DNA of 64,000 bases, from the NCBI GenBank assembly GCA_902624315.1, contig CACNXC010000004.1, positions 1 to 64,000 of the forward strand, written 5' to 3'. Each line of letters begins with the position of its first letter. Position 1 is the stretch's first letter. This DNA is from an uncultured Pelagibacteraceae bacterium. Its GTDB lineage: Bacteria > Pseudomonadota > Alphaproteobacteria > Pelagibacterales > Pelagibacteraceae. This document shows, piece after piece, positions 26,007 through 44,369 of the stretch. Under the pieces are notes generated by a model, which saw only the letters and a program-made list of their open reading frames with translations, made no database searches and was not told where the DNA came from. The translations under genes and the position numbers were made by a program.

Positions 26007-26029
26007 AAAATGATATATTACTATTATAT

Positions 26030-26106
26030 GCGCTTGTAGCTCAACTGGATAGAGCGCCTGACTTCGGATCAGGAGGTTCTGGGTTCGACTCCTAGCAGGC
26101 GCACCA
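26030..26106 (+). tRNA. tRNA-Arg (TCG), encoded CCA
   Basis: GCGCTTG...CAGGCGC acceptor stem; anticodon arm CCTGA-CTTCGGA-TCAGG; CCA. Confidence 0.96.
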
Positions 26107-26107
26107 A

Positions 26108-40866: not shown

Positions 40867-40884
40867 AATTTAGTTAAGTTATAA

Positions 40885-41667
40885 ATGTTACCAAATTTTT
40901 TAAAACCTTATCATACAGCTTTATCTAATTTAATTAGGCTTGGAAGAAAATCAGATGGTGGATATGTTATAGACAAACGTGTTATAAGTAAAACTAGAGC
41001 AATTATTACTTGTGGACTTGAAGCCGAATGGAGTTTTGAAAAACAATTCCAAGAATACAATAAAAATTGTAAAATTTTAGCTTTTGACCACACAGTCAAC
41101 AATAAATTTTGGGCTGATAGATTTTTAAAAGATTTTATTTCTTTATTATTGTTGAGAAAAATTAAACCTTATCAAATATTAGATGTTTTCAAATTTGTGC
41201 AATACTTAACTTTTTTCAAGGGTAAAAATAAACATTATTTAAAAAAAATTGTTTCAAAAAAGACAAAACAAAATAATCAAATCACAATTTCTGAGGCAAT
41301 CGGAGACAATAAGGATATTATCTTAAAAGTAGATATTGAAGGTGATGAATATAAGGTTTTAAAAGAAATTAATGAAAATTTTAACAAACTAAATTTAGTA
41401 ATTATAGAATTTCACGAACTTCAAAAAAATTTAAAAAAAATAAAAGACTTCATAAATCAAACAAAGCTAAGAAATATTCATATAAGTGCAAATAATTATG
41501 GTATGGTAGACAATAAGGGTATCCCCCAAGTAATTGAAATGACATTAATAAATCCAAAAAAATTTAAGATAAAAAAACAAAAAACGACAAGAAATTATCC
41601 TATTCAAGGTTTAGATTATAAAAATCGTAAAAGAGGACCTGAAATTAAAATCTCTTTTAAAAAATAG
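40885..41667 (+). CDS. FkbM-like methyltransferase domain protein
   Basis: SDGGYVID, DIILKVDIEGDEYKVLKEI, LVIIEFHEL. Confidence 0.65.
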   Translation: MLPNFLKPYHTALSNLIRLGRKSDGGYVIDKRVISKTRAIITCGLEAEWSFEKQFQEYNKNCKILAFDHTVNNKFWADRFLKDFISLLLLRKIKPYQILDVFKFVQYLTFFKGKNKHYLKKIVSKKTKQNNQITISEAIGDNKDIILKVDIEGDEYKVLKEINENFNKLNLVIIEFHELQKNLKKIKDFINQTKLRNIHISANNYGMVDNKGIPQVIEMTLINPKKFKIKKQKTTRNYPIQGLDYKNRKRGPEIKISFKK

Positions 41668-41676
41668 ATATAACAA

Positions 41677-43041
41677 TTAGCTATTTTTTCTTAAAACCGA
41701 TATTGAACTTGTAGATTCTAAAAAAATTATAATTAATTTTTTATCTTTAGAGATTATCATATCACGAACTCTTTCATTTAGTAAAAAGTAATCATGTTTA
41801 ATAACTTTATCTCTATTCTCATTTAGCTTAATGTAGTGAAGTCCTAAATCCTGATCGGCAATCTCATTTCCCATTGCTCCAATTAAAAATTCTGTATCTG
41901 CTTCATTAAGGGAAATTGTTTGACTAATACCAATTGATGGATCAAAATATTTAATAGGTTCTTCAAAACCAAATTTTTTATGAGATTTATTAAGTGGTGC
42001 TTCTTTCAATATTTTGTCTGAATAATTCTTTGCATAATGTTCTCCATACGATGAAATCGGCCATCCGAAATTTTTAACTTTTAAAAAAGGTTTATTATTA
42101 ATATTGATTTCGTCACCACCTTTTGGTCCATGCTCAGTAGATAAAATAAAGTCAAATTTTTTACTGTAATATAAACCTTGTGGATTTCTATGGCCCATGG
42201 ATACAATCTCTGAATTTTTATTTTGAATGTTAATTTTTAAAATTTTTCCAAAGTCGCTTTTAAAATCTTGTGAAAGGGGTCTATTTCTAAAATCTCCTGT
42301 AGTAAATAATAGGTTTGAACTATCAAGATTTACAATTCTTCCGCCTGCACCTTGGTGAGCCCAAAATCCATGATTGTTATTTTTATCAACGCAATTTAAT
42401 GTTTGATAAAATAAATTAAAATCTAAAAATTTTTCATTTAATTCGCTAAAAATAATTTTAAGATCGTAACAATTATCTTTTCTTTCACCAATATATGAGA
42501 CGTATAATTTATTATTGTCTATATGAATGTCCTTAATACCATATTGCTCATGAAAATAAAATTTATCATATTTTATTATTGAATTAATATTTGAGTCGAT
42601 TTTTATAAAATTTTCTAAGTTATTAAGATTAGTAAATGCAAAAATTCCATCATAAGTTGCGATCAATAAATTTTTATCATTATTATAAAAGTCAATATAT
42701 GCTGTCCCAGTAGCACCACGATTACCATTAAATAAAATATCCTTAGTTGAATATTTTGAATAAGAAAAATTATTCAATCCATCAAGTTTTTTATCTTTAA
42801 ATATATTTTTAAAAGTGATCCCTTTTTTATTAATTATATCATTTAAGTTTTTTCCGTCTTCGAATAATTTTTTTTGTATTTTAGCTAGCTGATTATTTCT
42901 AGTTTTAAGTTGATTTACTATGTTTGAAATCTCATTTTTTTTGGATGCTGAACTCTTCTTGTTAATTTGGTGACCAATAATTAATAAAGCAATTAAAAAT
43001 GCTATTATTATAAGATAAATAAAATTTGCTTTAACTTTCAT
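41677..43041 (-). CDS. Membrane-anchored glucose/sorbosone (PQQ-dependent) dehydrogenase-like beta-propeller protein
   Basis: N-terminal TM plus coiled coil; GHRNPQGLYYSKKFDFILSTEHGPKGGDEIN...NFGWPISSYGEHY. Confidence 0.8.
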   Translation of the reverse strand: MKVKANFIYLIIIAFLIALLIIGHQINKKSSASKKNEISNIVNQLKTRNNQLAKIQKKLFEDGKNLNDIINKKGITFKNIFKDKKLDGLNNFSYSKYSTKDILFNGNRGATGTAYIDFYNNDKNLLIATYDGIFAFTNLNNLENFIKIDSNINSIIKYDKFYFHEQYGIKDIHIDNNKLYVSYIGERKDNCYDLKIIFSELNEKFLDFNLFYQTLNCVDKNNNHGFWAHQGAGGRIVNLDSSNLLFTTGDFRNRPLSQDFKSDFGKILKINIQNKNSEIVSMGHRNPQGLYYSKKFDFILSTEHGPKGGDEININNKPFLKVKNFGWPISSYGEHYAKNYSDKILKEAPLNKSHKKFGFEEPIKYFDPSIGISQTISLNEADTEFLIGAMGNEIADQDLGLHYIKLNENRDKVIKHDYFLLNERVRDMIISKDKKLIIIFLESTSSISVLRKNS

Positions 43042-43117
43042 TTAAACTTTCCTACACTTTATATTTAAATTTTACTAAATAAATTTTAAAAATTTTAAGC
43101 GACAAAAAATACTTTAT

Positions 43118-43287
43118 AGGGGGGGCGTTCTGTTGCCAGGTGCCCCAAACCCCGTTTACTCAATTAATAAATTAATTAAGCAGCAATTGCGTAACTTTCG
43201 TTAGCATTTATAAATTAGCCCTTTACGGAGGAACAATTCCGAACGAAAGAATAGCCTTTAGTCACCCGTCGAATCTAGTTCACCCCC
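43118..43287 (-). ncRNA. ssrA: Two-piece tmRNA, coding (mRNA-like) piece
   Basis: Minus strand starts GGGGGTGAACTAGATTCGACGGGTGAC; tag ORF GCT AAC GAA AGT TAC GCA ATT GCT GCT TAA; 3' GGGGCACCTGGCAACAGAACGCCCC hairpin/pseudoknot; ends approximate at 3'. Confidence 0.92.
43176..43205 (-). other. tmRNA proteolysis tag reading frame ANESYAIAA-stop
   Basis: Frame in the coding piece ending YAIAA, like E. coli YALAA; resume codon inferred as GCT. Confidence 0.82.
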
Positions 43288-43299
43288 ATAAGTTGTAAT

Positions 43300-43378
43300 T
43301 GGTGGAGGTGGTGGGTACTGCCCCCACGTCCGCAATGGTTATTACGAAATTCGTTTATCGTCATAGTTGGAAAACCAA
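43300..43378 (-). ncRNA. ssrA: Two-piece tmRNA, acceptor piece (5' end approximate)
   Basis: Minus strand ...TTGCGGACGTGGGGGCAGTACCCACCACCTCCACCA; CACCTCC pairs with GGGGGTG of the coding piece (7 bp incl. G3-U70), CCA encoded. Confidence 0.88.
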
Positions 43379-43421
43379 CTTTATTAATATAAAAGGAATC
43401 GCAAGAGATTCAATAACAATC

Positions 43422-44369
43422 ATGAAATTAACTAAAGAACAATCTGCGGAAATAAAGAGTCAGCAGTCTCAAAATAATAAAACAAAAAGGGTTGTAGTAT
43501 CAGAGTTGGAAAATATTCTTTATGAGGCAATACCAGCTTTAGATCATGGTTTTGTAAGGGTAGTTGATTACATGGGTGATGATACATCCATCGTTCAAGC
43601 TGCAAGAGTTTCTTATGGAAAAGGAACTAAACAAGTATCAACTGATGCCGGATTGATAAAATATTTGATGCGTCATTGGCATAGCACACCATTTGAAATG
43701 TGTGAAATTAAATATCACATCAAATTACCAATTTTTATAGCACGTCAATGGATAAGACATAGAACTGCAAATGTTAATGAATATTCTGCAAGATATTCTA
43801 TTTTAGATAAAGAATTTTACTTACCAACCTCTGAAAATTTAGCAGCTCAATCAACAAGTAATAGACAAGGAAGAGGGAATGTCCTTGAAGGAAGTCAAGC
43901 AAAAGAGGTTTTAGAGCTTTTGAAAAATGATGCTGAAAGAACTTATTCCAATTATGAAATCATGCTTAATGAAAGATATGATGGATCTACTATAGATGAT
44001 AATAAAAAAGGCTTAGCTAGGGAACTTGCTAGAATGAATTTAACATTAAACACTTATACTCAGTGGTATTGGAAAACAGATCTTTTAAATTTAATGAATT
44101 TTTTAAGACTCAGAGCAGATCACCATGCTCAATATGAAATTAGAGTTTATGCCGACATTATGTTGGATACATTAAAAAAGTGGGTGCCAATAACTCATGA
44201 AGCTTTTATGGATTATAGAGTAGGTGGTACAGAGGTTTCTGCTAAAGGAAATGTCGTTATTCAAAAATTAATTAAAGGTGAAGACGTCTCTTTAGAAAGC
44301 TCCGGTTTGTCCAAAAGGGAGTGGAATGAGTTAATGGAGTCTTTTAATCTAAAAGATAAGTTGATTTAA
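43422..44369 (+). CDS. thyX: Flavin-dependent thymidylate synthase
   Basis: [15 protein letters not shown] ThyX motif; start set to ATG 43422 because the upstream extension overlaps tmRNA. Confidence 0.95.

Follow-up and report, generated by a model that had tools for sequence, protein, structure and literature searches.

What kind of RNA gene lies at positions 43118-43378 of the window, the whole stretch of 64,000 nucleotides analysed here from an uncultured Pelagibacteraceae bacterium, and why does the end of this gene recur elsewhere in SAR11 genomes? The initial annotation proposed a permuted two-piece tmRNA on the minus strand, with the Rfam alpha_tmRNA model as a check. The cmscan results show that RF01849 (alpha_tmRNA, gathering score 50 bits) matches 43118-43417 on the minus strand with 225.5 bits and E 4.9e-64 over the full model (positions 1-355), and that a second Rfam family, RF04321 (tmRNA_permuted), is found at the locus with 134.8 bits; ARAGORN calls a tmRNA* at 43085-43394. 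The two-piece permuted identity is thus supported, since two independent methods agree, and the match lies far outside what chance would produce. As for the extent, the tmRNA does lie in the proposed interval, but Rfam carries its 5' side on to 43417. On the minus strand, the acceptor (tRNA-like 3') segment, with the T arm and the CACCTCC-ACCA end, occupies 43300-43417 by the RF01849 alignment and the sequence, the 5' boundary being that of Rfam, and its terminal letters are CACCACCTCCACCA (43300-43313). It stands upstream of the coding segment (43118-43287 by the RF01849 alignment), which opens with GGGGGTGAACTAGATTCGACGGG and holds the tag reading frame ANESYAIAA plus stop at 43176-43205 (ARAGORN). 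A 12-nt spacer, ATTACAACTTAT, separates the two pieces at 43288-43299, and the acceptor end and coding start are exactly where they had been placed. GGGGGTG and CACCTCC do form the predicted 7-bp acceptor stem with an alanine-type G3-U70 pair, and this stem does not vary among the 31 distinct stem-spacer combinations found in SAR11. The tag ends in AA, and the partner SmpB is encoded in the same genome (G000 C10:4818-5243, 191.7 bits). Judged by its letters, the locus is the permuted two-piece ssrA of a SAR11 bacterium. Going by the family, cleavage of its transcript at the spacer would presumably yield two RNAs, acceptor and coding, that are joined by base pairing in the acceptor stem and work with SmpB in trans-translation.

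Two further statements about the locus need correction. It had been called the most GC-rich non-coding stretch; it is GC-rich, with 44.1% where the window has 30.3%, and no other non-coding piece of 100 nt is as rich as the best one here (53%), but taken as a whole the gap with tRNA-Arg (26007-26107) exceeds it, at 46.5%. To say that ORF calling misses it is too simple, as the longest-ORF call for the divergent neighbour thyX (43299-44369, plus strand) runs through the acceptor piece from a TTG start at 43299, inside the tmRNA. The likely true start is the ATG at 43422, which gives thyX the extent 43422-44369 on the plus strand.

Across the family, which includes many incomplete genomes, 160 of 197 have RF01849, and when only the good genomes are counted it is present in 74 of 78; the ThyX signature adjoins 149 of 176 tmRNA copies. 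The spacer, noted as very short and perhaps reflecting streamlining, is really short, but it is not special to this genome. Spacers in SAR11 range from 9 to 17 nt with a mode of 12 (76 of 99 tmRNA loci), on which ground we rejected the spacer as an oddity of this genome; in other alphaproteobacteria, the 25 best-scoring tmRNAs have spacers of 10 to 58 nt, with a median of 36. The short SAR11 spacer fits genome streamlining, which it does not prove. That permuted two-piece tmRNA is already established in alphaproteobacteria was rightly stated: in P. ubique a split, permuted tmRNA beside thyX was described in 2009, with an overlapping thyX mis-start (PMC2704228), and our locus resembles that ssrA in gene order, acceptor stem, tag, thyX neighbour and thyX mis-start. 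The two-piece tmRNA of Caulobacter is a further known example of the permuted alphaproteobacterial kind, with no essential difference. The tag here is ANESYAIAA, and the commoner SAR11 tag is ANESYALAA. In itself, the tmRNA is ordinary for SAR11 and adds nothing new.

It is the 3' end of the gene that deserves discussion. This end contains a 25-bp motif, GGGGCACCTGGCAACAGAACGCCCC, at 43122-43146 on the minus strand (hereafter M), which the junction evidence given below marks as a putative cassette attachment site. In an Rfam search of the own genome, a second, sub-threshold match of 20 bits proved to be due to a copy of the tmRNA 3' end right after the rnhA stop codon. A pattern search shows M elsewhere in this genome at C1:83210, C1:83963 and C3:162597, the latter two diverged, with a weak copy at C6:53372; a reversed control pattern has zero matches there. 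Among the genomes of the genus, 47 of 61 are matched by the M pattern, several with 2-4 copies, and all control counts are zero; more than one copy is found in 16 of the 30 good genomes. In total we collected 304 distinct copies (163 in tmRNA), named loci included, and the named records with M are almost all Pelagibacteraceae single-cell genomes. Together with the thyX-ssrA arrangement known from P. ubique, these records point to Pelagibacteraceae (SAR11) as the most likely family of the genome. The secondary sites lie after the stop codon and on the same strand at rnhA, pnp, sodB and a lipoprotein gene. Two genomes, G003 (L186) and G113 (L188), are without M downstream of rnhA and have an unrelated hairpin-like sequence there. 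Across the class, the exact 16-mer core of M occurs in 39 of 289 sampled genomes; the carriers outside SAR11 have a single copy each, and multi-copy M is confined to SAR11 in this sample. A pseudoknot GUUC/GAAC around M was considered and dropped, as by eye the upstream letters vary freely while GAAC does not.

Below we report how sequence similarity behaves around M, in a sample of sixty regions of up to 16 kb with 143 M copies, the loci being chosen for holding M. Among these copies, 47 pairs share the flank after M and not the one before, and 63 pairs show the reverse. The tmRNA is shared in all 2850 pairs of tmRNA copies, the sequence after it in only 124. With each alignment end counted once per locus, the density of ends is 38.3 per kb up to 20 bp from M and falls to 2.6-3.1 per kb at distances above 1 kb. 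The first value is 14.4 times the background beyond 500 bp, a density that tells where breaks fall within M-selected loci and not the share of M in all SAR11 variation.

The same is seen where filled and empty sites can be compared. In the own genome, rnhA is followed by M, by 753 bp that contain a single 172-aa gene, by a diverged M and by a peroxiredoxin-like gene, and G227 has the empty site, namely rnhA, one M and then the peroxiredoxin-like gene. The two are 89.4% identical before M, 94.0% after the second M and 53.3% after the first, the last being the level of unrelated sequence. At ssrA, M directly abuts a pyruvate phosphate dikinase-like gene in G253, and in G113 a 1596-bp cassette and a second M precede that gene, with identities of 93.2% before M, 81.0% after the second M and 54.1% after the first. 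A difference of the same type separates G109 from G131, G123, G172, G206, G101 and G069 at ssrA. In short, a filled site differs from an empty one by one cassette and exactly one M more. The same cassettes are also met at different sites: a 342-bp cassette with an 80-aa gene lies after ssrA in G208 and recurs elsewhere in G213 with 96.8% identity over 342 bp, a segment with a 135/140-aa gene lies after a pnp-like gene in G213 and forms the second unit at ssrA in G219, and a segment after ssrA in G190 recurs in the rnhA array of G083. Tandem arrays of M in the same orientation are found as well, and single-cell and one-contig genomes are among those that have them.

As for the window, what lies between its M and the pyruvate phosphate dikinase-like gene (40867-43117) is a variable segment, in a place that is empty in G253, and it contains an FkbM-like gene (40885-41667, plus strand, Pfam PF05050) and a glucose/sorbosone dehydrogenase-like gene (41677-43041, minus strand, Pfam PF07995). 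No second M is found in the window with up to 6 mismatches allowed, which we count against the attachment-site reading, and the segment is not a proven cassette because no second M remains. In a comparison of 150 distinct right flanks of ssrA, these fall into 54 similarity clusters, while the opposite side has the ThyX signature in the 149 of 176 copies given above.

Overall, M bounds 69 distinct segments, counted between same-orientation copies at most 4 kb apart, with lengths of 34-2776 bp (median 712, mostly 0.25-2.8 kb). The longest ORF of a cassette opposes the direction of M in 44 of 60 (p = 4e-4). Accessory genes make up the cargo, which has Pfam matches to MrcB_N with an HNH-like end, MrcB_N-NOV_C, Mrr_cat and HNH_2, further to a polysaccharide lyase, a family 5 cellulase, an inverse autotransporter and a MetE-like enzyme; some of it matches PADLOC models, and many of the encoded proteins are small and appear to be secreted. 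Restriction-like proteins (MrcB_N, HNH, Mrr_cat, NOV_C) are carried by the cassettes of several loci (L384, L132, L463 and L457), which suggests a role in anti-phage defence for part of the pool. Free cassettes often have a dyad and ACAAAGTT ahead of M, for example ATTATTCGCGAATAATGGTACAAAGTTCGGGGCACC. A left end of about 65-90 nt (CCCCTTTCCAAAGGTTTCCGTTGTCC and variants) is alike in different cassettes (L076, L040, L083, L100, L163, L080) and may be an end or a terminator that they have in common. G209 has a SAM-V riboswitch (58.3 bits) close to an M array, at L075:7978-8042 on the minus strand.

With its last 25 bases recurring as cassette junctions, the tmRNA gene appears to offer at its end a place where exchangeable genes can dock. 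We consider it probable, on comparative sequence grounds, that the ssrA 3' end serves in Pelagibacteraceae as the attachment site of small cassettes that lack a recombinase and are moved in trans. A cassette would carry one M at one end, and this M would recombine with that of ssrA or with that of a secondary site at the 3' end of rnhA, pnp, sodB or the lipoprotein gene, so that insertion would yield M-cassette-M and leave the tmRNA end intact. The simplest account would be conservative recombination between M on a circular cassette and a chromosomal M, and we infer that a conservative site-specific recombinase does the exchange. No circular intermediate is visible in the assemblies, a point against this account. 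In the rnhA array of the own genome, the second M has a host-type right half, AACTGCCC, as in G172 and G069, and the first M a cassette-type one, which places the exchange left of that point; there are also arrays in which the tmRNA copy has the centre GGGC and the second M has TGGC or GAGC. These few cases suggest that the crossover may fall within M, right of its centre. The wider reading, for which the arguments stand about level, would be that SAR11 bacteria share a pool of recombinase-free cassettes with a copy of the tmRNA 3' end, shuttled between ssrA and the secondary sites in an integron-like exchange by a trans-acting recombinase not yet recognised.

Which enzyme could act here was followed in several searches. 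No serine recombinase (PF00239) is found in 29 SAR11 genomes, whereas 10 of 14 controls have a match. The surroundings of M in 315 loci (2.0 Mb) are free of integrases, and the cargo of the 69 segments includes no recognisable recombinase. The putative recombinase must therefore act in trans, because the cassettes encode none that is recognisable. The lack of a dedicated enzyme in these 29 genomes and 315 M loci also speaks for an exchange that would need no site-specific recombinase, in which imported linear DNA recombines at M copies by a RecA-dependent route, homologous or with short homology. M together with neighbouring conserved sequence offers at least 25 bp of identity, and high recombination in SAR11 has been reported; for a surface-gene region that lies between conserved RNA genes, homologous exchange has been proposed (PMC2217521). 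Nevertheless, the same short unit moves between unrelated loci, and the breaks fall at M and not in the longer shared flanks. Moreover, 25 bp is short for efficient homologous recombination, and altogether we regard this explanation as unlikely.

Another candidate is the conserved Xer-like tyrosine recombinase of SAR11, which could act on M as a second class of target beside a dif-like site of its own. No other PF00589 protein is present in the genome of the window or in most of the relatives with a match; the gene lies at G000 C3:16424-17377 (L175:1425-2378, minus strand) and has homologues in L176-L179, L182 and L184. The best NCBIfam match of the protein is XerD with 70.9 bits, below the cut-off, and against the integron integrase model it scores 31.1 bits where the cut-off is 265. 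However, a conserved imperfect AT-rich dyad, ACTAATGATAATTAATTGTTATCAATAGT, lies directly upstream of the gene in 7 of 7 loci and is dif-like and unlike M, and the gene adjoins surface-polysaccharide genes, not cassettes. The gene and the dyad possibly form a single-recombinase Xer system, and an action on M is distinctly unlikely.

It could also be argued that M is no recombination site at all and that several genes share it at their 3' ends as a terminator or RNA 3'-end element (stem GGGGC/GCCCC) which has spread among them, with the turnover of neighbours reflecting ordinary gain and loss in intergenic gaps. M is indeed the RNA 3' end in tmRNA, conserved across Alphaproteobacteria in the Rfam consensus. 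Its position after stop codons on the same strand at the secondary sites, and its replacement by a hairpin-like sequence at rnhA in G003 and G113, are what such an element would have. On the other side, the later M copies of the arrays mostly oppose the cassette genes (the 44 of 60 above) and, running against gene direction, do not end cassette transcripts. In addition, M itself is where similarity breaks, and a filled site has precisely one M more than an empty one. A terminator element alone is thus quite improbable. Many of the genomes are fragmented and incomplete, and the arrays could in principle have arisen as artefacts when metagenomes were assembled or binned. This is largely excluded, since M is multi-copy also in the one-contig genomes G003 and G040 and in many single-cell genomes, and since one and the same unit is met in different genomes with diverged sequence.

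M as a phage attP was rejected. The exact 22-mer of M is present in only eight viral contigs, at apparent phage tmRNA genes without integrase, and a looser pattern gives mostly chance matches. The viral loci L167-L174 (IMG/VR) are apparent myophage contigs with ribonucleotide reductase genes and seemingly complete tmRNA genes with exact M, in agreement with the two-piece phage tmRNAs reported before (PMC9004378).

If the wider reading of a shared cassette pool is true, there would be integron-like gene exchange in bacteria thought to lack such a system. As a 25-bp mark of cassette junctions, M would give a handle on the gain of restriction, polysaccharide-degrading and surface genes and would allow cassettes to be counted in existing metagenomes, and it would help to explain the high variability of the ssrA side away from thyX.

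Finally, we compare the cassettes with known systems. The integron cassettes share with them the small units, the recombination site at one end, the tandem arrays and the mobile cargo. In SAR11, however, there is no integron integrase and no recognised attC, M is the end of a tmRNA gene without a GTTRRRY/RYYYAAC pair (by eye), and the cargo mostly opposes the site; for the hypervariable regions of HTCC1062, no attC was reported (PMC2217521). The tycheposons of Prochlorococcus and OM43, as far as they are summarised in PMC10872708, resemble the SAR11 units in RNA-gene-bounded cargo and in belonging to streamlined aquatic bacteria, but are described there as elements of 4-200 kb with a tyrosine recombinase, while the SAR11 units, searched up to 4 kb, are mostly below 3 kb, reach at most 2.8 kb and carry none. 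The additive island of Ca. Methylopumilus (PMC10872708) is likewise from a streamlined aquatic bacterium and has a repeated RNA-gene end and variable small cargo, mostly of no known function; its repeats are of the last 20 bp of tRNA-Lys, hence another RNA gene in another lineage, and it is described as one island, whereas the SAR11 units lie at several loci. Also comparable are the ssrA islands of Dehalococcoides (PMC2764846, PMC3146451), where, as in SAR11, tandem modules are bounded by direct repeats of the ssrA end, of about 20 bp there, and where some islands also have no integration module. Those islands are about 12 kb, have a serine recombinase module (DsiB/DsiA) and all lie within 100 kb downstream of a standard ssrA, in contrast to the SAR11 units, which are small, are without such a module, belong to a permuted ssrA and have copies at unlinked secondary sites. 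For SAR11, no account of cassettes of this sort was found in the open-access literature.
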